DNA from: a virus
Length of the DNA: 22,374 nt
Direction: 5' to 3' (one strand)
Virus record (IMG/VR): IMGVR_UViG_3300044729_001785
Span: 1 to 22,374 of that record
This document shows positions 2,580-20,775 of the stretch, one piece after another. Made by a program: the position numbers and the translations under genes. Each line of letters opens with the position of its first letter. Within the stretch, counting starts at the first letter, position 1. The notes beneath the pieces are model-generated. The model ran no database searches and was not told where the DNA came from. It worked only from the letters and a program-made list of their open reading frames with translations.

Positions 2580-2950
2580 TGGCTACGTTCAACGACGCGA
2601 CAGTAGGAACGAGCACAGGCGGAACAACGCCTGACTTTGGATCTGCTCGCAGGAGCGCACCGATTGTCAGGACTGTTCAGTTCGGCGACGGTTATCAGCA
2701 AAGGCTGAAGTACGGTCTGAACCAGAACCCGAAGGAATGGGATCTGCGCTGGACCGCCAAGTCAACGGCTGACGCGGATGCGATTGAAGCATTCTTTGAT
2801 GCACGTGCGGCTGACAACGCTGCGTTCGACTGGACGCCTTTGGATGACAGCACGGCGTACAAATGGATCTGCAGTGAGTGGAATCGCGAGTTCAATTACG
2901 CGAACGTGCATACCATTACTGCAACGTTCAAGCAGGTGTTTGAACCGTAA
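2579..2950 (+). CDS. M: Minor tail protein M
   Basis: The product is 123 residues. Residues about 29-41 (VRTVQFGDGYQQR) match the VRxVxFGDGYxQR hallmark of the lambda minor tail protein M family, and the end (ITATFKQVFEP) matches the family's closing beta strand (lambda EFSAEFEQVV). In lambda gpM joins the tail tip between the tape measure and L/J. The gene starts on the A of the tape measure TGA and its TAA overlaps the L start by one base (TAATG), placing it in the H-M-L-K-I-J order seen in lambda. Compared with lambda gpM it is slightly longer, mostly in a loop before the FGDGY motif. Confidence 0.93.
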   Translation: MATFNDATVGTSTGGTTPDFGSARRSAPIVRTVQFGDGYQQRLKYGLNQNPKEWDLRWTAKSTADADAIEAFFDARAADNAAFDWTPLDDSTAYKWICSEWNREFNYANVHTITATFKQVFEP

Positions 2951-3843
2951 TGGCCTACGCAGCCTGGCAAGCCAGCACGAGCTATGCAGTCGGCGCCATC
3001 GTTCGCGCCACGACGACGCAGGCCAGCGGGCTGGTGTTCCGCTGCACGGTCGCAGGTACAAGTGCCAGCACACAGCCAGCATGGCCGACCGACATCGGCA
3101 GCACGATTGCAGACGGCGGCGTCACATGGGCAGCCATCAGCAGCGTCTACGAAGAGCTGGCGGTCCTGGGTCCGAACGCGATCATCGAGCTGTTCGAGCT
3201 GCAGCTTGACACCACGCTGCATGGCGCCAGCACGACCTACTACTGGCACAACGGCGTGAACGCAGCCGTGACTGGCAACATTGTCTTTGCCAGCAACACC
3301 TACGTCAGGCTTCCAGTTGAGGCGACGGGCTTCGATTACACCAGCTCTGGCAGCCTGCCGCGTCCGACGTTGCGAATCAGCAACCTGTTCAGCGACATGA
3401 CCACGCTTCTGCTGCTGGTCAACGCGACCACGCCCGGCAACGACCTGGGCGGCGCCACGGTGCGGCGGATCCGCACATTGAAGAAGTTCCTTGACGGCGA
3501 GGCGGCGGCCGACCCTAATGCCCGCTTCCCCACGGAGATCTGGTACGTCGATCGCAAGTCGAACGAGAACCGCGACCTGGTGGAGTTCGAGCTAGCCAGC
3601 AAGTTTGACCTGGCCGGCGTCATGCTGCCCCAGCGGCAGATCATCGCCAACGTGTGCCAGTGGAAATACAGGGGTGCTGAATGCGGCTACACCGGCAGCA
3701 ACTACTGGAACGTGAACGATCAGGTCGTGGGTACCTTGGCTGCTGATGTGTGCGGCAAACGGGTGGAGAGCTGCAAACTGCGGTTCGGCGCCACGGCTGA
3801 GTTGCCGTTCGGAAGTTTCCCAGGCGCGGGTCTGACCCAGTGA
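2950..3843 (+). CDS. L: Minor tail protein L with extra N-terminal module
   Basis: The 297-residue product aligns with lambda gpL from about residue 65 (elements such as RLPVEATGF, LPRPTLRISNLF, GGATVRRIRTLKKFLDG). Near the C-terminus four cysteines (236, 245, 268, 275) sit in CQWKYRGAECGYTG and VCGKRVESCKLRFG; in lambda gpL the equivalent cysteines bind an iron-sulphur cluster in the tail tip, so a cluster is likely here. Residues about 5-62 are not in lambda L: they form a Trp/Tyr/Gly-rich module (WQASTSYAVG, AGTSASTQPAWPT, DGGVTWAAIS) resembling small carbohydrate-binding or chitin-binding-like repeats found in many phage tail proteins. It starts with TAATG overlap to M and ends as TGATG with K. 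Confidence 0.92.
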   Translation: MAYAAWQASTSYAVGAIVRATTTQASGLVFRCTVAGTSASTQPAWPTDIGSTIADGGVTWAAISSVYEELAVLGPNAIIELFELQLDTTLHGASTTYYWHNGVNAAVTGNIVFASNTYVRLPVEATGFDYTSSGSLPRPTLRISNLFSDMTTLLLLVNATTPGNDLGGATVRRIRTLKKFLDGEAAADPNARFPTEIWYVDRKSNENRDLVEFELASKFDLAGVMLPQRQIIANVCQWKYRGAECGYTGSNYWNVNDQVVGTLAADVCGKRVESCKLRFGATAELPFGSFPGAGLTQ

Positions 3844-4556
3844 TGAAGCTGACCGACACGCTCAAGGCTGACATCCTGGCGCACGCGCAGGCCGAGGATC
3901 CCCGCGAGTGCTGCGGCCTGATCCATGTGGTCAAAGGCCGGCGGCGCTACTACCCATGCAGGAACTTTGCGGCCACTCCTGACGAGCATTTCGTCTTGGA
4001 CGCCACAGACTATGCAGCCGCCGAGGATGCCGGCGAGGTGATCGCTGTTGTCCACAGCCACCCGGTTACCCCACCCGAGCCATCGGCAGCAGACCGCATC
4101 AGTTGCAACAACAGCGGCCTGCCGTGGGTGATCGTCAACCCCAAGACCGAAGCATGGGGCGGCTGCGAGCCTGCAGCGTTCGAGTTGCCCTACGTCGGCC
4201 GCGAGTTCGTGTTTGGCGTGGTCGATTGCTACTCGCTTGTGCGGGATTGGTACAGCCGCGAGTGGGGTCTGACGCTGGCGGACTTCGACCGGCGTGATCG
4301 GTTCTGGGAACGAGGCGAGAACCTATACCTCGACAGCTACCGCTCGCAAGGCTTCAGACAGGTGCCGTTTGAAGAGCTGCAATACGGCGATGCGATCCTG
4401 ATGCAACTATCGGCAAGCCTGCCCAACCACGCGGCGATCTACCTGGGCGATCAGCAGATTCTGCATCACGTTCAAGGCAGGCTCTCTAGCCGCGATGTCT
4501 TCGGCGGCTACTATGTGAAAAGCAGTGCCATGGTCTTGCGGCATGAAAGTCGTTAA
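3843..4556 (+). CDS. K: Tail assembly protein K: JAMM peptidase plus NlpC/P60
   Basis: The 237-residue protein fuses two domains as in lambda gpK. Residues 1-105 are a JAB/MPN (JAMM) metalloprotease fold with Glu22 (RECCGL), His71 and His73 (VHSHP), Ser81 and Asp84 (SAADR), all zinc-site positions kept. Residues about 120-237 are an NlpC/P60 cysteine peptidase with Cys129 (VDCYSL), His196 (NHAAIYLGD) and His208/209. Such proteins act at the tail tip and may process tail parts or cut peptidoglycan cross-links during entry. I chose the ATG at 3843, which overlaps the L stop as TGATG, over a GTG three bases earlier. The 3' end overlaps gene I by 14 bases. Confidence 0.92.
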   Translation: MKLTDTLKADILAHAQAEDPRECCGLIHVVKGRRRYYPCRNFAATPDEHFVLDATDYAAAEDAGEVIAVVHSHPVTPPEPSAADRISCNNSGLPWVIVNPKTEAWGGCEPAAFELPYVGREFVFGVVDCYSLVRDWYSREWGLTLADFDRRDRFWERGENLYLDSYRSQGFRQVPFEELQYGDAILMQLSASLPNHAAIYLGDQQILHHVQGRLSSRDVFGGYYVKSSAMVLRHESR

Positions 4557-5193
4557 GGTCTACGGCGCACTTCGCAAGCGACTCGGACAGTGCCGGTTCG
4601 AGTTTGAAGTGGACACGCCCGCGCAGGCGATCAAAGCGCTGTGCGTCAACTTCCCTGGCCTGGACAAGTGGCTCATCGACTCTGAGCAGACCGGAATGGG
4701 CTTCCGCGTCACGGTCGGCAAGGAACGCATCACACAAGAGGACGCCAGCGTGGCCGTGCTGCCATGGTCTGAGCGTGACGTGTTCAGCATTGCGCCGGTG
4801 CTGACTGGCGCGGGGCAAGGTTTTGGCCGCGTGCTGGCAGGCATCGGTCTCGTTGCGCTAGCGATTGTTGCCGGTCCTGCGGCTGGCGGCTTCCTTGGAT
4901 TGGGTGCCGGTCTAGGCGGCGCTGGTGCAGGCTTGATCGGGGGCACTGCTGCTGTTGCCCTTGGCGGCATCGGCGCCAGTTTGGTGCTTGGTGGTATTGC
5001 GCAGATGCTGTCTCCGCAGCCCGACATCTCAGCGCTGCAACGCGGCAAGGAAGCCGCCCGGTTGGAGTCATTCAGCTTTAGCGGCATTGTCAACACCAGC
5101 CAGCAGGGGATGCCGGTGCCGATCGTTTATGGCCGCGCTTTTGTTGGTTCGGCTGTCCTGTCTAGCGGCCTTGACGTGGCGCAACTGAAATGA
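4543..5193 (+). CDS. I: Tail assembly protein I
   Basis: The product is about 216 residues and has the layout of lambda gpI: an N-terminal ubiquitin-like half (KVVKVYGALRKRLG at the start, then a PAQAIKAL helix), a long Gly/Ala hydrophobic middle (about residues 90-160) with VLGGIAQMLSPQP, and a C-terminal VPIVYGRAFVGSAVLSSGL motif. In lambda, gpI is needed for tail-tip assembly but is absent from the finished tail. I placed the start at ATG 4543, inside the end of K; a GTG at 4525 in the same frame would add six residues. It ends in an ATGA overlap with J. Confidence 0.9.
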   Translation: MKVVKVYGALRKRLGQCRFEFEVDTPAQAIKALCVNFPGLDKWLIDSEQTGMGFRVTVGKERITQEDASVAVLPWSERDVFSIAPVLTGAGQGFGRVLAGIGLVALAIVAGPAAGGFLGLGAGLGGAGAGLIGGTAAVALGGIGASLVLGGIAQMLSPQPDISALQRGKEAARLESFSFSGIVNTSQQGMPVPIVYGRAFVGSAVLSSGLDVAQLK

Positions 5194-8100
5194 CGCAGCT
5201 CCAAGGTTCTGGTGGCGGCGGTGGTGGCGGCGGATGCTTCCTAGGGCACACGCTGGTGCGCACGCCTGACGGGCAGCATCGCATCGATGAGCTGCAGGCT
5301 GGCGATCAAGTCCTGAGCTTCGATGACAAGGGCACGCTGCACGAGGCGACGATCCTGAAGGTGCATGAGCACCTGAACGAACGCGTCTATCGCTACCAGC
5401 TTTGGGGCGGCGCGTCACTGGATGCAACCCCGAATCACTGGGTGCTGAACCAGTTCAATGCCTTTGTTGCGATCGGCAGCCTTGGCGCTGATGACTGCTT
5501 GGTGGACGAGAACAACCACCTACGCCCCATCGTCGGCCGTGAAGAACTGCCCGCTGGCGCGGTCTACAACCTGACTGTCGAGGGGCACCATACCTTCATC
5601 GCCGGTGGTATCCGTGTTCACAATGCCGGCCTCGGCGTGCTGCAGGGTGCAGGTGGCGGTGGCGGTGGCAAAGGTGGCGGTGGCACAACCCACGTCCCAT
5701 CAGAGGCTGACGACAGCCTGCAATCGGTTCAATACGCCAGTGTCCTGGACCTGATCAGCGAGGGCGAGATCCAAGGCATCGAGGATGGGGTGCAGGGCAT
5801 CTACTTGGATGGGACGCCCGTTCAAAGCGCAGGTGGCATTGACAACTTCACCGGCTACACCGTCGTCACCCGTACCGGCACGCAGGCTCAGAGCTACATC
5901 CCTGACGCCAACGGCACTGAATCTGAAAAGGCTGTCAACGTCGAGATCACCGCTGCTGCATCTGTCACCCGGCAGATCACCGACTCGGATGTGGACCGCG
6001 CCCGCATCACGGTGCAGGTGCCAGCGCTGCAGATCATCGAGGATGACGGCGATATTGTTGGCCACGAGGTCAGCATCCGCTGCAGGGTGCAGTACAACGG
6101 CGGCGGTTACACGACCGTGTTTGAAGACACGATCAGCGGCAAGACCACAAACGCCTATCAGCGCGATTACATCATCAGCCTGAGTGGTGCGTTCCCGGTT
6201 GACATCAGGTTGGAGCGCATCAGCGCTGATGAGTCAAGCGCCCGCCGGCAGAACCGCACGTTCTGGTTCAGCTACACCGAGATCATCGACGAAAAGTTCA
6301 GGTACCCCAACAGTGCACTGGCATTCCTGCGCTTCGACAGCCGTCAGTTCAAAGGCGTCCCAGCCCGCAAGTATCTGGTGCGTGGCATCAAGGTGCAACT
6401 GCCCAGCAATGCCACGGTTGACACGACGACCTACCTCGGCCGCGTCACCTACAGCGGCGTCTGGGATGGCACCTTCGGCGCTGCTACCTGGACTAACGAC
6501 CCAGCATGGTGCCTATGGGATCTGCTGACCAACACCCGCTATGGCGCCAGCATCCCGGCCAGCAGCCTTGATCGGTATGACTTCTACGCAATCAGTCAAT
6601 ACTGCAACGAGCTGGTAAGCAACGGCCGCGGCGCACAGGAGCCACGGTTCAGTTGCAACATGCTGATCAACAGCAGGGACGAGGTTTACAACGTCATCCA
6701 GGAGTTCGTCGCGCTGTTCCGTGGCATCGCCTACTACGGCGCTGGCGCCATGGTTGTGCTGCAGGACAAGCCATCTGATCCGCAGTATCTGCTGACTCCG
6801 GCCAACGTGGTTGATGGGCTGTTCAATTACAGCGGCTCATCGCAGAAAGCACGACACACCACAGCAACCGTCGCCTATCAGGATTACGACAACCTGGGCG
6901 AGGTGTCCTATGAGTATGTCGAGGATGCGTCGGCCGTTGCCAAATATGGCATCATCAACAAGGACATCAAGGCAGTCGGCTGCTACTCGCAAGGGCAGGC
7001 GCACCGTGCTGGCAAGTGGGCGCTGCTGTCCGAGCAGAACCTGACCGAGACCATCACCTTTTCAGTCTCGATCGACTCAGGCATCGTGCTGCGACCTGGC
7101 ATGGTGATCGACGTGGCCGATCCGGTCAAGGCTGGCAGCAGGCGCGGCGGCCGCATCGCAGCAGCAACAACCACGACCGTCACGCTCGACGACGCCACCG
7201 GCATCACCCTGGGCACCTCGCCCACGATCAGCGTCCTGTTGCCCACCGGCCTGGTCGAGACCCGCACCGTTAGCACTCTGGCGGCTGGCGTGGTCACGGT
7301 CACAAGCGCGTTCAGCGAGGCGCCCAACGCCCAGAGCATCTGGGTCATGGAGAACACCAGCCTGCAGACGCAGCAGTTCCGTGTCGTCAGCGTGGCTGAG
7401 GCCGAGGACGGCATCTATGGCGTGACAGCGCTGGCCTACAACAGCAGCATCTATGCCGCCATCGAATCAGACATCAAGTTGCAGACGCGGGACATCTCCA
7501 ACCTGTCCGCACTGCCTGAGTCGCCCACCGGCCTGACTGGCACGGAGCACCTGTACACCGACGGCCAGAACGTGCGCACGGCATTTGAGCTGAGCTGGGT
7601 GCCGCCGACCCAACTGGTGCAGTCCTACCGGGTGATCTACCGGCTCGGCAATAACAACTTCTCGCAGATCGACACCAACAGCCCCAGCACCCGCATCGAG
7701 GGCTTGGACGCTGGCACGCTGCAGGTCCGCGTGCAGTCGATCAACAGCCTTGGCGGTGTCAGCAACCCGGCGACTGCAACGTTCAACCTGATCGGCAAGA
7801 CCGAGCCACCGGGCAACGTCCAGAACCTGACCATCGAACCGATCAGCGCCAACAGCGCCCGGCTGCGCTGGGATGCCACGGTTGACTTGGACGTGCGCGT
7901 TGCCGGCCGCGTCCACATCCGCCACACCAACCTGACCGATGGCACCGGTACCTGGAGCAACAGCGTTGACCTGATCCCTGCAGTCGCTGGCTACAGCACC
8001 GAGGCGATCGTGCCGTTGGTGGAGGGTCAGATCCTGGTCAAGTTCGAGGATGACGGAGAGCGTCAGAGCCCAACTGAAGCCAGCGTGATCGTGGACTTCC

Positions 8101-8927
8101 CGGATGCGCTCGGCAACCTGCTGGTGCAAAGCCGCCGTGAAGATGCTGACACGCCGCCGTACCAAGGCAGCAAGACGAATGTCTTTTACAGCGAAGAGTT
8201 GGACGCCTTGGTGCTCGACGGCGACACACTGCTGGACGCCATTGCTGACTTTGACCTGATCAGCAGCATGGACTACCTCGGCGCCGTGGAGCCGCTAGGA
8301 ACCTATGAGTTCGCCAACACGCTCGACTTGGGTGCCAGCTTTGCCCTTGACCTGAGCCGATTCTTTGTCACTGCTGGATTCTTCCCGAACGATCTGGTGG
8401 ATAGCCGCACTGCACTGGTGGACGACTGGGCAGATTGGGACGGCGGCATCATCGATCAGGTCAACGCCAAGCTGTACCTGCGCCGCACGCCTGACAACCC
8501 CAGCGGCACGCCTACATGGTCCGGCTGGCAGGAGTTTGTGAACGGCACCTTCCTGGGGCGTGGCTTCCAGTTCAAGGCAGAGCTGATCAGCAACAACACA
8601 GCGCAGAACATCCTGATTGACCAGCTCGGCTACGAGGCCACCTTCCAGCGCAGGACTGAGCAGTCGGTTGGGGCGGTCAGTAGCGGTGCTGGCACGAAGG
8701 CGGTCACGTTCGACAAAGCGTTCTTCACCGGCACCACCAGCTTGGGGGGCACCAACGCCTACCTGCCCAGCATTGGCATCGTGGCGCAGAACCTAGCGAC
8801 AGGCGACTACTACAACGTGACCAACGTCACCAGCAGCGGCTTTGACGTGACCTTCAGAAACAGCGCTGGCACGGCAGTGAGTAGGAACTTCCTATGGACT
8901 GCGGTGGGATTTGGCAAGGGCGCTTAA
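5190..8927 (+). CDS. J: Tail tip host-specificity protein J carrying a Hint domain
   Basis: The 1245-residue protein is a lambda gpJ homologue: after a glycine-rich start it follows J closely, with DSLQSVQYASVLDLISEGEI, NRTFWFSYTEIID, SGVWDGTFGAATW, WCLWDLLTNTRYG and QAHRAGKWALL. Two fibronectin type III-like domains lie at about residues 774-970. The remaining 275 residues have no lambda counterpart that I recognise and probably face the host receptor. In lambda, J forms the tail tip and recognises the receptor. Unlike lambda J, residues 16-145 are an inserted Hint domain (separate entry). Without it the protein would be about 1115 residues, close to lambda J (1132). The start overlaps gene I as ATGA. 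Whether the mature tail contains the full chain or one starting at Ala146 cannot be told from sequence. Confidence 0.95.
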   Translation: MTQLQGSGGGGGGGGCFLGHTLVRTPDGQHRIDELQAGDQVLSFDDKGTLHEATILKVHEHLNERVYRYQLWGGASLDATPNHWVLNQFNAFVAIGSLGADDCLVDENNHLRPIVGREELPAGAVYNLTVEGHHTFIAGGIRVHNAGLGVLQGAGGGGGGKGGGGTTHVPSEADDSLQSVQYASVLDLISEGEIQGIEDGVQGIYLDGTPVQSAGGIDNFTGYTVVTRTGTQAQSYIPDANGTESEKAVNVEITAAASVTRQITDSDVDRARITVQVPALQIIEDDGDIVGHEVSIRCRVQYNGGGYTTVFEDTISGKTTNAYQRDYIISLSGAFPVDIRLERISADESSARRQNRTFWFSYTEIIDEKFRYPNSALAFLRFDSRQFKGVPARKYLVRGIKVQLPSNATVDTTTYLGRVTYSGVWDGTFGAATWTNDPAWCLWDLLTNTRYGASIPASSLDRYDFYAISQYCNELVSNGRGAQEPRFSCNMLINSRDEVYNVIQEFVALFRGIAYYGAGAMVVLQDKPSDPQYLLTPANVVDGLFNYSGSSQKARHTTATVAYQDYDNLGEVSYEYVEDASAVAKYGIINKDIKAVGCYSQGQAHRAGKWALLSEQNLTETITFSVSIDSGIVLRPGMVIDVADPVKAGSRRGGRIAAATTTTVTLDDATGITLGTSPTISVLLPTGLVETRTVSTLAAGVVTVTSAFSEAPNAQSIWVMENTSLQTQQFRVVSVAEAEDGIYGVTALAYNSSIYAAIESDIKLQTRDISNLSALPESPTGLTGTEHLYTDGQNVRTAFELSWVPPTQLVQSYRVIYRLGNNNFSQIDTNSPSTRIEGLDAGTLQVRVQSINSLGGVSNPATATFNLIGKTEPPGNVQNLTIEPISANSARLRWDATVDLDVRVAGRVHIRHTNLTDGTGTWSNSVDLIPAVAGYSTEAIVPLVEGQILVKFEDDGERQSPTEASVIVDFPDALGNLLVQSRREDADTPPYQGSKTNVFYSEELDALVLDGDTLLDAIADFDLISSMDYLGAVEPLGTYEFANTLDLGASFALDLSRFFVTAGFFPNDLVDSRTALVDDWADWDGGIIDQVNAKLYLRRTPDNPSGTPTWSGWQEFVNGTFLGRGFQFKAELISNNTAQNILIDQLGYEATFQRRTEQSVGAVSSGAGTKAVTFDKAFFTGTTSLGGTNAYLPSIGIVAQNLATGDYYNVTNVTSSGFDVTFRNSAGTAVSRNFLWTAVGFGKGA
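5211..5234 (+). repeat. Poly-glycine codon run before the Hint domain
   Basis: Eight consecutive GGN codons (GGT/GGC/GGA) encode residues 8-15 of J, directly before Cys16. A second Gly run follows the Hint domain, so the domain lies within one low-complexity linker. Confidence 0.85.
5235..5624 (+). other. Hint / bacterial intein-like domain inside J
   Basis: Residues 16-145 of J show all the Hint blocks. The N-terminal block starts with Cys16 (CFLGHTLVRTPDG, then IDELQAGDQVLSFD). The second is DATPNHWVL with Thr80 and His83 (TxxH). The C-terminal block is VYNLTVEGHHTFIAGG followed by IRVHN with His144-Asn145. There is no room for a homing endonuclease, so it is a minimal domain of 130 residues. 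The residue after Asn145 is Ala146, not the Cys/Ser/Thr that standard splicing needs. That fits A-type bacterial intein-like (BIL) domains, which mainly cleave their flanks. The domain assignment is directly visible; cleavage in vivo is inference. Confidence 0.9.
5652..5684 (+). repeat. Poly-glycine codon run after the Hint domain
   Basis: GGT/GGC codons encode GGGGGGKGGGG (J residues 155-165). Many J homologues start with a short Gly-rich segment like this just before the conserved P-x-E-x-x-D-S-L region, so this is probably the original J N-terminus. Confidence 0.8.
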
Positions 8928-11554: not shown

Positions 11555-11847
11555 GCGACAATACGACTTGGCTGTGGCGTTATGACAGCAGGGACTGGCG
11601 GCATCGCATGCAGCGTGCTGCTCAAGATCACAAGTTCCACGCGACCTTAGCGCCACGGCTTGATCGTGAAATCGAACGTGTCAACAAGATTATTGACCTG
11701 GAAGAGGAGCGGTCAAAGCGCCGGCCTGTGATCAAGGAAGAACCGATCACACCAGAGCAAACAGGTGACAGCCGCCTTCTAGGTGGACCGATGTCAATCT
11801 CATCCCCTTGGAACGATGACGACCCAGAACCGCCTGAAGCTAGTTGA
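11503..11847 (+). CDS. Hypothetical protein between membrane proteins and endolysin
   Basis: The convincing part of this frame begins about residue 18 (SDNTTWLWRYDSRDWRHRM), followed by a charged helix (DREIERVNKIIDLEEERSK) and an acidic, proline-rich end (WNDDDPEPPEAS). No family is recognised. The start is uncertain: TTG 11503 has GGGAG just upstream but would overlap the previous gene by 52 bases; a CTG at 11551 would overlap its stop as CTGA; the first ATG is at 11608, inside the conserved-looking part. The 3' end overlaps the endolysin start by 32 bases. Confidence 0.6.
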   Translation: MGATGAEGTEGDLPKALSDNTTWLWRYDSRDWRHRMQRAAQDHKFHATLAPRLDREIERVNKIIDLEEERSKRRPVIKEEPITPEQTGDSRLLGGPMSISSPWNDDDPEPPEAS

Positions 11848-12847
11848 CCTGTTCAAGTATTACAAGGCATTACCGCATCAAACGGCGGCGATCTTTGAAT
11901 TCGAGGAAGCCTTGTTAAAGGTTGCCCCTGATCTGTTGAATAGGGATCAAGCTTGGTTCAAGACGTGGTCACAAGCTGGCAAGCAAAATCTTTTTGAAAA
12001 TAATTGGCAGGGCGTGTTTGATGCCGCCAAGAAAGCTGGGGCGAAATTCCCTGAGCTTGTTGCAGCGCAGTGGGCACTTGAATCGGGGTATGGCAAGCAT
12101 GTATCAGGCGAGAACAACTTCTTTGGCCTGAAGGGTGCAGGAACGAATCGCAACACGAAGGAATACATCAACGGCCGTTGGATCACGATTCAGGATTCAT
12201 TCCTTGACTTCCCTGATCTTGAGACGTGTGTGTTTTATCTGGTTGAGCGCTGGTACAAGGATTTCAATGTGTATCAGGGCTGCAATCGTGCTCCTGATCG
12301 CGAGGATGCTGCACGCTGGCTTGTGCGTGAAGGGTATGCAACAGACCCTACCTACGCTGACAAGCTGATTAAGCTGATGAATCTGCATGCGCAGGGTGTC
12401 AAGGCGGTGCAGGCTGTACAGGCCGTGCAGTTCACCCCTGGTAAGCCATTTGACTACAAGATCACACCCAATGTGACCTATGGCGAGATCGCGCTGAACA
12501 GCGAAAACAGGCGATTCATTGCGCAGCATCAATGTGACACTGCCGTTGTGTTGTGTCAGTACCTTGAGAAGGTCAGGACGCACTTCGGCAACAAGCCAAT
12601 CATCATCACAAGTGGCTACAGGCCGCCTGCTGTGAATAATGCTGTCGGCGGTGCTCGCAACTCTGAACACCTCTACGACAAACCCAATACAGGCGCTCTG
12701 GACTTCTGGATCAAAGACGTAGACATCTACAAGGTGCAGGAGTACTGTGACCAGACCTGGCCGTACAGCCTTGGCTACGGGGCAAAGAAGGGCTTCGTGC
12801 ATCTAGGCATGAGACCAGGCAAACCACGCATCCGCTGGGATTATTGA
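11816..12847 (+). CDS. Endolysin: GH73 glucosaminidase plus M15 peptidase
   Basis: The 343-residue protein should cut both the glycan and peptide parts of the cell wall at lysis. Residues 1-60 are an extra helical N-terminus (DLFKYYKALPHQ, WFKTWSQAGKQ) that I associate with cyanobacterial and cyanophage homologues. Residues about 60-190 are a GH73-type glucosaminidase with likely catalytic Glu89 (WALESGYGKH) and ENNFFGLKG. A small repeat, KAVQAVQAVQ (196-205), links to the M15-type D,D-/L,D-peptidase at about 215-343, with zinc ligands His285 (NSEHLYD), Asp296 (GALDF) and His329 (FVHLGM) after SGYRPPAVN. There is no signal peptide, so a holin is needed. ATG 11816 was chosen over an upstream in-frame ATG at 11783 that overlaps the previous gene more deeply. 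Confidence 0.9.
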   Translation: MTTQNRLKLVDLFKYYKALPHQTAAIFEFEEALLKVAPDLLNRDQAWFKTWSQAGKQNLFENNWQGVFDAAKKAGAKFPELVAAQWALESGYGKHVSGENNFFGLKGAGTNRNTKEYINGRWITIQDSFLDFPDLETCVFYLVERWYKDFNVYQGCNRAPDREDAARWLVREGYATDPTYADKLIKLMNLHAQGVKAVQAVQAVQFTPGKPFDYKITPNVTYGEIALNSENRRFIAQHQCDTAVVLCQYLEKVRTHFGNKPIIITSGYRPPAVNNAVGGARNSEHLYDKPNTGALDFWIKDVDIYKVQEYCDQTWPYSLGYGAKKGFVHLGMRPGKPRIRWDY

Positions 12848-13371
12848 TGGCTGTCCTGTGTGACTGGCAGATCCGTGACCTGTGCGTTGGGTCACAGATG
12901 GTCACCCCATTCGATGAAGCGCTGCTGAACCCTGCGTCCTTGGATGTGCGGTTGGGTGATCACCTGATGATCGAGCGTGCCCTGGACATGGACCTGGAGC
13001 TGGTCAGCCTGAAGGGATACAGCGAGAATGATCCTTACTGGCTGCAGCCTGGTGAGTTCGTCTTGGCTGAGACGGTGGAGACCTTCAACCTGCCAGAGCA
13101 CATCTGCGGGCAGTTTGCGCTGAAGAGCAGCAGGGCACGAGCAGGGTACAGCCACATGCTTGCAGGCTGGTGTGATCCAGGTTGGCACGGCTCAAAACTA
13201 ACGCTGGAGCTGCAAAATGCACGCAAGATGCACTCGCTGCCTCTGTACCCAGGGTTAAAAATAGGACAGATTATTTTCTTTGAAATGAGTGCCCAACCAC
13301 TCGTTAGTTACGCGAAGGTGGGGCATTACAACAACGATACAAAAGTATCAGGATCAAAGGTTAATCCCTGA
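12847..13371 (+). CDS. dcd: dCTP deaminase
   Basis: The 174-residue protein belongs to the dCTP deaminase/dUTPase family, converting dCTP to dUTP (or on to dUMP in bifunctional forms) for thymidylate synthesis. Family signs are NPASLDVRLGDH (residues 28-39), LQPGEFVLAETVETFNLP (66-83), ALKSSRARAG (91-100) with Ser94/95 and Arg98, WCDPGWHGSKLTLELQN (108-124) with catalytic Glu121, and PGLKIGQIIFF (135-145). A metal-free active site is expected. The start overlaps the endolysin stop as TGATG; a TTG three bases earlier is less likely. The 3' end overlaps a leftward HNH gene by 11 bases. Confidence 0.9.
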   Translation: MAVLCDWQIRDLCVGSQMVTPFDEALLNPASLDVRLGDHLMIERALDMDLELVSLKGYSENDPYWLQPGEFVLAETVETFNLPEHICGQFALKSSRARAGYSHMLAGWCDPGWHGSKLTLELQNARKMHSLPLYPGLKIGQIIFFEMSAQPLVSYAKVGHYNNDTKVSGSKVNP

Positions 13372-18137: not shown

Positions 18138-18348
18138 TCCATCTGCTGCACGTGATCTTCTGCGTCGCGGCATTCTCAAGGGCTACTGGACACTCGAAGA
18201 CCTCGACAAGTCTGCACCTGGCACTGAGCTCAATTTTGCTGAATATCGCCGTTTCCTTGCGTTACAAAAAGCTTATGTGCAGGCGCCTGTTTACAAAAAC
18301 CTCCTGCGTGATGACGATGAATCGCCTGACACTGCCCTGATCCCGTGA
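18121..18348 (+). CDS. Hypothetical protein, 75 residues
   Basis: The product starts MKRTFDPSAARDLLRRGILK, then GYWTLEDLDKSAPGT and EYRRFLALQKAYVQAPVYKN, and ends acidic (RDDDESPDTALIP). It looks helical. ATG 18121 lies inside the end of the upstream nuclease-like gene, and the stop overlaps the next start as TGATG. No family recognised; coupling to two nuclease-type genes suggests a related process. Confidence 0.68.
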   Translation: MKRTFDPSAARDLLRRGILKGYWTLEDLDKSAPGTELNFAEYRRFLALQKAYVQAPVYKNLLRDDDESPDTALIP

Positions 18349-19076
18349 TGCTCGTTACCATGCATGAAAGCAGTAGCGAGCTTGTGCCCTTGCAGCGCCT
18401 GCCACTGATACAGCGCAACCCTGTAGGTCAGCCGCGTTTCTACTGGAACGAAGCGCGGCCTCACCTCAGGTACGCCAGTATCACGAGCGTTCTGTCTGCA
18501 ACACAATCAGAAGCCACGAAGCAAGCCCTCAGGCGTTGGCGTCACAAAATCATCCAAGAGGGAGGTGACCCTGACGAGACCCGTGATCAGGCTGCCCGTC
18601 GTGGTGCTGCTATTCATGACTGGTTCGAGCAGTTCCTGCTGAAGCAGAACCCAGAGATGCCTGAGGCCATTGCGCCCTGGTGTCAGAACCTGCTGAAGTC
18701 TCCCCTGTGGAACAGTCTTGATCACGTGGTCTGCACAGAGCATCAGGTCTGCAGCGATGAAGGCATCGTGCCCTTTGCCGGCACCCTTGATGCCCTCGTC
18801 AAGCTGAACGGTGAGTTCTGTCTGCTTGACCTGAAGACCAAAGCGCCCAACAAAGCCAAGCCGACCAAGCAGATCAGTGATGAGGCCATGTGTCAGTTGC
18901 AGGCTTACCGCCTGTGCTTGGCTGAAAACTACGGGATTCAGGTGCAGCGCTTCATTGCCCTGTATGCCTTCCCTGATCAGCCGGCTTACCCAGTTGCTGC
19001 AGCGGGCGAGGATCTGAAACGCCATGAGACTCATTGGACTCAACGAATTACCGCGTATTCGCTGCAAAACCCTTGA
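18348..19076 (+). CDS. PD-(D/E)XK exonuclease (RecB/Cas4/MGME1-like)
   Basis: The 242-residue protein has the ordered motifs of the RecB-type nuclease family: a conserved RRGAAIHDWFE helix with His90, Glu131 (TEHQV), Asp148 in FAGTLDALV, Asp161-Leu-Lys163 in LLDLKTKAP, and the QLQAY motif (183-187). Such nucleases trim DNA ends in recombination and replication; phage members often work with an annealing protein. There is no four-cysteine set as in iron-sulphur Cas4, so MGME1/lambda-exo-like action fits better. ATG 18348 (TGATG overlap) is chosen over a GTG three bases earlier. The end overlaps the next gene as TTGA. Confidence 0.82.
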   Translation: MLVTMHESSSELVPLQRLPLIQRNPVGQPRFYWNEARPHLRYASITSVLSATQSEATKQALRRWRHKIIQEGGDPDETRDQAARRGAAIHDWFEQFLLKQNPEMPEAIAPWCQNLLKSPLWNSLDHVVCTEHQVCSDEGIVPFAGTLDALVKLNGEFCLLDLKTKAPNKAKPTKQISDEAMCQLQAYRLCLAENYGIQVQRFIALYAFPDQPAYPVAAAGEDLKRHETHWTQRITAYSLQNP

Positions 19077-19893: not shown

Positions 19894-20261
19894 CAAATAC
19901 TAAAATGGAAATGACATCAACAGAATTAGCTTTTTATTCTTTGGGCGAAATTCTTGCGGGTACAAGAAATAGACTCAAGTTTGAGACTCAATTTTCATTG
20001 ATTAAACAAGCTCTAACTCGTCTTCAAAAGCTCGAAGAAAGCCTTAAAACAAGCAATTCCTCAACGTTTCAACATTGGTTGGATCTCAGGGAAAACTCAA
20101 ATATTGCTGCTTATGCCTGCATTTTGGATCTTCGTGAACAAATACAGGCATTAGAACAGGATTTAACGAATCAAGAATTTCGTGCTCAATTCTACAAAAA
20201 TATTTTAGGCAATCGTATTGACTCAATTGAAACTTTTATCAAACAAAAAGAAAATGACTAA
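19890..20261 (+). CDS. Hypothetical helical protein, AT-rich
   Basis: The 123-residue product is almost fully helical and charged (SLIKQALTRLQKLEESLKTS, ILDLREQIQALEQDLTNQEF), likely coiled coil. Its bases are much richer in A and T than the genes on either side, like the endonuclease that follows, so the two may have arrived together. It starts in an ATGA overlap and its end overlaps the next gene by eight bases. No family is recognised. Confidence 0.65.
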   Translation: MTNTKMEMTSTELAFYSLGEILAGTRNRLKFETQFSLIKQALTRLQKLEESLKTSNSSTFQHWLDLRENSNIAAYACILDLREQIQALEQDLTNQEFRAQFYKNILGNRIDSIETFIKQKEND

Positions 20262-20775
20262 ATCAAAACCCCTTCCAGCCCTTGAAGTCCTTCAAGAGTA
20301 TTTTGAATATAATTCAGAAACTGGAATTTGTTATTGGAAAAAAAGTCCGGCAAAAAACACGAAAGCGTGGACTGTTGCCGGCACCAAAAAATCAGATTAT
20401 TGGGTAATTAGGTTTCAAAATAGCGAATATCAAGCGCATCGCATTTTTTGGTATTTACATTTTAAAGAGGATCCGGCCGAAGGCATGGTTGACCATATTG
20501 ATCGTGATAAATATAACAACAGAATTTCAAACCTCCGGATTGTTAATGATGCACAAAATCAAATGAATCAAGAAAAAGCAAAATCGAACAACAAAACAGG
20601 CGTACTCGGAGTTTGCTGGGATAAAAAAGCTCAGCGATACAAAGCATTCATAACTGTTGATAAAATTAAAAAACACCTGGGAAATTATAAAACTTTGGAA
20701 GAGGCGGCAGCCGTTAGACAAGCAGCCGTCAAACAATACTTTGGCGATTTCGCACCTCAATCTAATTTCATATGA
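20254..20775 (+). CDS. HNH homing-type endonuclease with AP2 domain
   Basis: The 173-residue protein has an HNH core: AHRIFWYLHF (61-70), MVDHIDRDKYNNRISNLR (78-95) with Asp80-His81, and Asn93, then NDAQNQMNQ. Residues about 112-165 are an AP2/ERF-type DNA-binding domain (NKTGVLGVCWDKKAQRYKAF, then HLGNYKTLEEAAAV). This pair is typical of free-standing homing endonucleases in phages. The gene is AT-rich compared with its neighbours, a sign of transfer, yet is threaded into the operon with eight-base and ATGA overlaps. ATG 20254 was chosen because an earlier in-frame start overlaps the previous gene by 44 bases. Confidence 0.88.
   Translation: MTKSKPLPALEVLQEYFEYNSETGICYWKKSPAKNTKAWTVAGTKKSDYWVIRFQNSEYQAHRIFWYLHFKEDPAEGMVDHIDRDKYNNRISNLRIVNDAQNQMNQEKAKSNNKTGVLGVCWDKKAQRYKAFITVDKIKKHLGNYKTLEEAAAVRQAAVKQYFGDFAPQSNFI

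Follow-up and report, generated by a model that had tools for sequence, protein, structure and literature searches.

We found that the tail-tip protein J of an uncultured virus carries, in a poly-Gly arm close to its start, a complete Hint domain which, judging from its residues, may be an active cassette of environmental siphoviruses that resembles A-type bacterial intein-like (BIL) domains, and the reading that we prefer, at a probability of roughly 0.55, is that it would be excised with ligation of its flanks, accompanied by some cleavage. Comparison of near-identical J sequences, in which the domain is cleanly present or absent, shows that it is dispensable and exchangeable in J. The window, that is, the whole stretch of DNA analysed here, is the 22,374-bp IMG/VR record IMGVR_UViG_3300044729_001785 (positions 1-22,374).

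The Hint domain and its tail-gene neighbourhood

The window contains a lambda-type tail module with genes for the tape measure protein, for positions M, L, K and I and for J, followed on the 3' side by a tail fibre gene with an S74 chaperone domain. The J core domains and the M-L-K-I-J gene order are those of lambda gpJ-like tail tips. When J was compared with phrog_31 ('central tail fiber J', E=5e-246), the match began only at residue 158, and because the PHROG J families match only from about this residue, the Hint does not belong to J as it is known. The relevant features, all on the plus strand, are as follows.

2950..3843 (+), minor tail protein gene in the gpL position (phrog_18, E=3e-77)
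3840..4556 (+), minor tail protein gene in the gpK position (phrog_30, E=9e-114)
4525..5193 (+), gene for a gpI-like tail assembly protein, immediately 5' of J (phrog_32, E=4e-48)
5190..8927 (+), gene of the tail-tip / central fibre protein J, 1245 aa, with the Hint inside (NCBIfam lambda_TipJ, E=6e-131)
5190..5234 (+), N-peptide M1-G15 (MTQLQGSGGGGGGGG), the N-extein equivalent, read from the sequence
5199..5216 (+), motif copy 1 (LQGSGG), ahead of the Hint and co-varying with copy 2 protein by protein
5234..5651 (+), cassette that some close relatives have and others lack, from DNA comparison with Hint-less J
5235..5624 (+), Hint domain, Cys16 to Asn145, 130 aa, codons 16-145 of J, from profiles and structure model
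5235..5237 (+), Cys16, predicted nucleophile of the N-S acyl shift (Cys in 119/119 distinct sequences)
5427..5438 (+), block B, T80-P81-N82-H83 (TxNHW in 119/119)
5568..5570 (+), Asn127, block F position 4 (invariant in a 30-sequence alignment)
5619..5624 (+), His144-Asn145 (block G), where Asn cyclisation and cleavage at the C-terminus are predicted (119/119)
5625..5636 (+), Ala146-Gly-Leu-Gly, positions +1 to +4, with no side-chain nucleophile at +1 (Ala146 = 5625-5627)
5640..5657 (+), motif copy 2 (LQGAGG), then GGGGKGGGG and the J core; the same motif starts Hint-less J

An earlier note, made from the letters of this DNA, had placed a complete Hint domain at 5235-5624 with Cys16, TPNH (80-83), His144-Asn145 and Ala146, and this proved exact to the residue. 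Pfam recognised the domain in J as Hint (E=5.8e-8), PT-HINT (9.6e-8) and Intein_splicing (2.6e-7), the NCBIfam models intein_Nterm and intein_Cterm both matched, and profile comparison gave the BIL domain CthBIL4 (2lwy) as the nearest solved structure (1.3e-12). In an AlphaFold2 model built from a 30-row alignment, block means reached 93-98 pLDDT between approximately residues 21 and 140, while the N-peptide and the Gly arm were disordered. Superposition of the modelled domain on structures of BIL domains and inteins gave 1.7-2.4 A, and the best Foldseek matches were Tetrahymena BIL2, CthBIL4 (1.7 A) and two inteins, gp41-1 and Mtu RecA. Chance or artefact as the origin of the Hint is ruled out by the profile matches, the conservation and the structure model. 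Position 4 of block F is Asn in both the J Hint and CthBIL4, whereas it is Asp in Mtu RecA and usually in inteins; in the Pho RadA intein, this Asp is thought to restrain Asn cyclisation until the branched intermediate forms. The Hint would lie close to a crowded interface of the tail tip and could plausibly be removed before or during assembly.

The window also encodes an endolysin that combines glucosaminidase and M15 peptidase domains (11783-12847, +), a dCTP deaminase-like protein (12844-13371, +), a PD-(D/E)XK nuclease-like protein (18345-19076, +) and a 185-aa ORF with an HNH_3 endonuclease domain (20218-20775, +; Pfam 1.9e-11), which is possibly a free-standing homing endonuclease.

A family of J Hints and its conservation

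Hint searches of IMG/VR gave 487 and 525 matches on about 500 contigs, those from related samples not being independent of each other, and a more distant branch was reached via an Oxalobacter contig. The GTDB species genomes contributed two Hint contigs, one in a cyanobacterial MAG (L084) and one in Oxalobacter (L085), where the neighbours are again tail genes and the contig is a phage or prophage; these two, the first of which may be mis-binned, are the only host pointers for the J Hint. Among 399 genomes of the order to which Oxalobacter belongs, we found the Oxalobacter case and otherwise only three weak Hint matches in large frames. No J with a J-type Hint was found in 50,697 phage records representing cultured phages; the matches there are inteins or Hints in other genes, at about 33% identity or below. 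Two Salmonella/Alcaligenes matches annotated 'putative tail protein' are weak (E=2). In Prochlorococcus phage MED4-117, which ranks among the cultured phages with the closest J proteins, J as annotated begins at the core, without the Gly arm.

In all 119 distinct sequences, the first residue of the domain is Cys and the last two are His-Asn. Both codons of each of the catalytic residues Cys, His and Asn are in use while the residues themselves do not change (for Cys1, 81 TGC and 38 TGT). Gly occupies position -1 in 118 of the 119, Gly-Gly before Cys1 is general in the family, and position +1 is Ala in 100 and Gly in 18, the last being cut off by a contig end. The Hint is under strong purifying selection, with a mean pairwise dN/dS of 0.16 vs 0.25 for the J core. 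A second sample of 80 contigs was picked by the block B DNA pattern alone, which avoids a bias towards intact copies. Here His-Asn stood at every readable C-terminus, all placeable Hints were in J, and a +1 nucleophile occurred in two only (Ser in L408, Thr in L426); these two could splice canonically and are natural controls. In another member of this sample (L448) the N-terminal part of the Hint is out of frame, which is either a frameshift or an assembly error. Five contigs (L140, L144, L149, L150 and L419) form a distinct branch, also in J, with Gly at +1 and the sequence HNGGHR; they are about 75-110 kb long and related to the Oxalobacter copy. The earlier note had proposed a search of J homologues for Hint domains and their +1 residue, and had held that random loss of Cys16, His83 and Asn145 would speak against an active domain: the search uncovered a Hint family residing in J with Ala or Gly, rarely Ser or Thr, at +1, and no such loss was seen. 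Its view of an A-type-BIL-like Hint that sits in a tail-tip protein without a +1 nucleophile is thereby supported.

Presence, absence and exchange of the cassette

When J relatives were searched for with the J core only (267 residues) and the best 80 were compared for Hint state, carriers and non-carriers were about equally frequent. Hint-less J alleles are up to 98% identical to Hint-carrying J over the 267 residues searched, and these proteins have the N-terminus MIEDLLLVQGAGGGGGGGGGGKGGGG... At the DNA level, homology between the window and Hint-less J genes ends at 5233, the edge of the Cys codon, and starts again at 5646 or 5652, leaving a gap of about 410 bp between left and right homology; right-side identity is about 84-93% in the main group. 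The idea that the Hint has an obligatory role coupling J maturation to tail assembly is weakened by these alleles. The earlier note had described neither this presence/absence polymorphism nor the exchange of the cassette. With 39 carriers and 37 non-carriers, Hint state changed 14 times on a J tree (801 bases of the J core), at least six of the changes being forced by well-supported branches, and 11 times on a tree of the upstream gene, although recombination within J may inflate such counts.

The exchange can also be seen in a second J family, in which one contig (L137) is the sole carrier among the J relatives listed. Compared with a Hint-less relative (L305), it is 91% identical upstream and 96% identical downstream, and has 421 extra bases. 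With another carrier (L063), it has in common only 3385-3854, i.e. the cassette and the Gly tracts, at 88%, while the J cores of the two give no nucleotide match; sharing the cassette between unrelated J cores indicates transfer of the cassette itself. Nevertheless, a general recent sweep of one Hint is not supported by the distances among Hint-carrying relatives, which for the Hint and the J core are similar in size and correlated (r=0.96), and much of the pattern is therefore probably old polymorphism, loss and allelic exchange. Most Hint-less J genes of the main group start with MIEDLLL, and thus they are not simple deletions of the window allele. Alleles with and without the Hint coexist, in some cases on contigs that share an IMG sample. 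We also considered and rejected homing by an endonuclease encoded nearby: the HNH_3 gene (20218-20775) was not detected in the contigs of 12 close relatives with or without the Hint, most of which are fragments. In the 40,428-bp contig IMGVR_UViG_3300042565_001438, one and the same stretch of J is matched at either end (L243 and L301), which points to terminal redundancy and a genome size of about 40 kb.

Relation to known Hint systems

The J Hint has the Hint fold, Cys1, the block B His and the C-terminal His-Asn, with no required +1 nucleophile, and on these sequence traits we place it as probably working like an A-type BIL domain. A-type BIL domains lie in variable regions of non-conserved proteins (PMC7765530); the J Hint occupies a variable, Gly-rich arm, yet that of a conserved tail protein. 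Its likeness to CthBIL4 of C. thermocellum covers the fold, Cys1, His-Asn, the usual absence of a +1 nucleophile and the Asn in place of the block F Asp. Unlike A-type BILs, however, it stays at a single, fixed site within a single conserved structural protein of phages, its +1 residue is almost restricted to Ala and Gly, and it behaves as a presence/absence cassette with matching flank motifs. Mini-inteins (the Mtu RecA splicing domain, gp41-1) resemble it in fold, size, active site and the existence of empty and occupied host-gene alleles, but nearly all J Hints lack Cys, Ser or Thr at +1 and they sit in a Gly-rich arm and not in a conserved active-site motif. A class 1 intein was rejected on the same two grounds, namely Ala at +1 (Ala or Gly in nearly all) and a site of variable length without a conserved motif; empty alleles in close relatives are a trait that the J Hint does share with this class, and its 130 aa leave no room for a homing endonuclease, an optional trait that mini-inteins also lack. 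It is not a B-type BIL domain, which would lack the intein C-terminal motif, whereas the J Hint has His-Asn, nor a Hedgehog Hog domain, for there is no sterol-recognition region and a Gly tract and the J core follow the Hint. BIL2 of the Tetrahymena BUBL1 locus (6y75, 6tmm) has the best Foldseek E-value and also Gly before Cys1, but it belongs to a eukaryote, has ubiquitin-like domains on either side and forms isopeptide bonds (PMC8616854). The inteins of phage TerL, helicases and nucleotide enzymes (phiCbK TerL, cyanophages Mic1 and CL131) are likewise phage-borne Hints, but those described are in enzymes and packaging proteins, and we found none in a tail-tip protein. With the PT-HINT domain of polymorphic toxins, the J Hint shares the Pfam match and a similar C-terminal His-Asn, but here there is no toxin module and J lies downstream of the Hint.

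Processing of J and alternative explanations

A motif of the form hydrophobic-x-Gly-Ala/Ser-Gly-Gly occurs before Cys1 and again shortly after His-Asn, and Hint-less J proteins have a single copy. The two copies match within each protein (IQGAST/IQGAST in L029, IIGSKG/IVGSKG in L147, VTGAGG/VTGAGG in L146) above expectation, with permutation p=0.0016 in the Ala clade and p<5e-5 in the Gly clade and Fisher p=0.0015 for their Ala/Ser agreement, these p-values being only indicative because the representatives share ancestry. Across 252 codon pairs, the copies differ by 118 synonymous vs 54 nonsynonymous changes, and this synonymous excess indicates that the match is held at the peptide level. A discarded peptide should not need a matched motif, and the covariation therefore favours, short of proof, an N-peptide that stays on J, i.e. 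splicing, although it could partly be a record of the first insertion of the cassette.

For A-type BILs, it has been proposed that a thioester forms at the N-terminus, that Asn cyclises at the C-terminus and that the freed amine attacks the thioester, and these domains can splice without a +1 nucleophile, though cleavage dominates (PMC4031507). All residues of this amine-attack route are invariant in the J Hints, and a small +1 residue offering only its amine, with Gly at -1, seems suited to it. J would thus be synthesised as a precursor, in which Cys16 would form a thioester with Gly15; with block F lacking the restraining Asp, Asn145 would cyclise and the chain would be cut at 145/146; the freed amine of Ala146 could then attack the Gly15-Cys16 thioester and join MTQLQGSGGGGGGGG to AGLGVLQGAGG... 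by BIL splicing. Where hydrolysis prevailed over ligation, J would begin at Ala146. Either product would be close to a natural Hint-less J, so that the cassette would be tolerated like an intein and copies unable to leave would be purged. Its spread would probably need no endonuclease, with the GGN-rich coding tracts on both sides providing the homology for recombination. We tentatively raise the possibility that this would amount to a new kind of mobile element, an endonuclease-free and J-specialised splicing cassette of the BIL type that moves via poly-Gly tracts and is ligated through a backbone amine.

The prediction that the domain cleaves rather than splices is unsupported, as A-type BILs can splice (PMC4031507) and the motif before Cys1 is kept and co-varies. 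Cleavage only, in which Asn145 cyclisation with or without thioester hydrolysis would free the N-peptide and the Hint and virion J would start at Ala146, is nonetheless the alternative that deserves most weight, even if we consider it rather unlikely. It fits the absence of a +1 nucleophile in nearly all homologues, the Asn where the intein Asp restrains cyclisation, the dominance of cleavage products in tested BILs (PMC4031507) and the resemblance of AGLGVLQGAGG... to the Hint-less start MIEDLLLVQGAGG..., but it does not account for a pre-Cys1 motif that matches the post-Hint motif protein by protein, nor for the conservation of the -1 Gly and Cys1, neither of which is needed for a discarded peptide.

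Compatible with either splicing or cleavage, the Hint might also act as a conditional switch that activates J only upon a signal from redox state, a metal or assembly, giving carriers an advantage in some conditions. The long coexistence of both alleles, including in the same IMG samples, and the strong purifying selection on the Hint are what such a switch would lead one to expect; near-identical phages nevertheless manage without it, no signal-sensing feature was found, and we regard the switch as unlikely. Still less probable is conjugation, in which the Gly15 thioester would be passed to a Lys or another amine of J or of a neighbouring tail protein, giving a branch or cross-link. The top structural match, BIL2, makes isopeptide bonds (PMC8616854), Gly-Gly before Cys1 is general in the family and a lone Lys lies within the downstream Gly tract, but that Lys occurs in Hint-less J as well and is thus no partner specific to the Hint, a search for a partner gene found none, and J can do without the domain. 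That the domain is vestigial or structural and remains in the virion, or is an artefact of assembly, is hardly credible given an active site that is invariant under synonymous drift and an occurrence in hundreds of contigs from many samples and in two GTDB genome contigs.

Significance

In the open-licence literature on Hint domains, inteins and phage tails, we found no report of a tail-tip Hint. The phage inteins described there reside in enzymes of DNA metabolism and packaging, and a widespread Hint in a host-recognition tail protein would be new. The compact, conserved Hints with their Gly|Cys and Asn|Ala/Gly junctions could become tools for cleavage or ligation. Matched alleles of one J with and without the Hint allow the natural role of BIL domains to be studied directly, and they bear on whether splicing elements spread without an endonuclease and on whether the virion uses ligation without a +1 nucleophile. 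At the start of J, hundreds of uncultured phages from water carry a Hint domain that is predicted to cut itself out.
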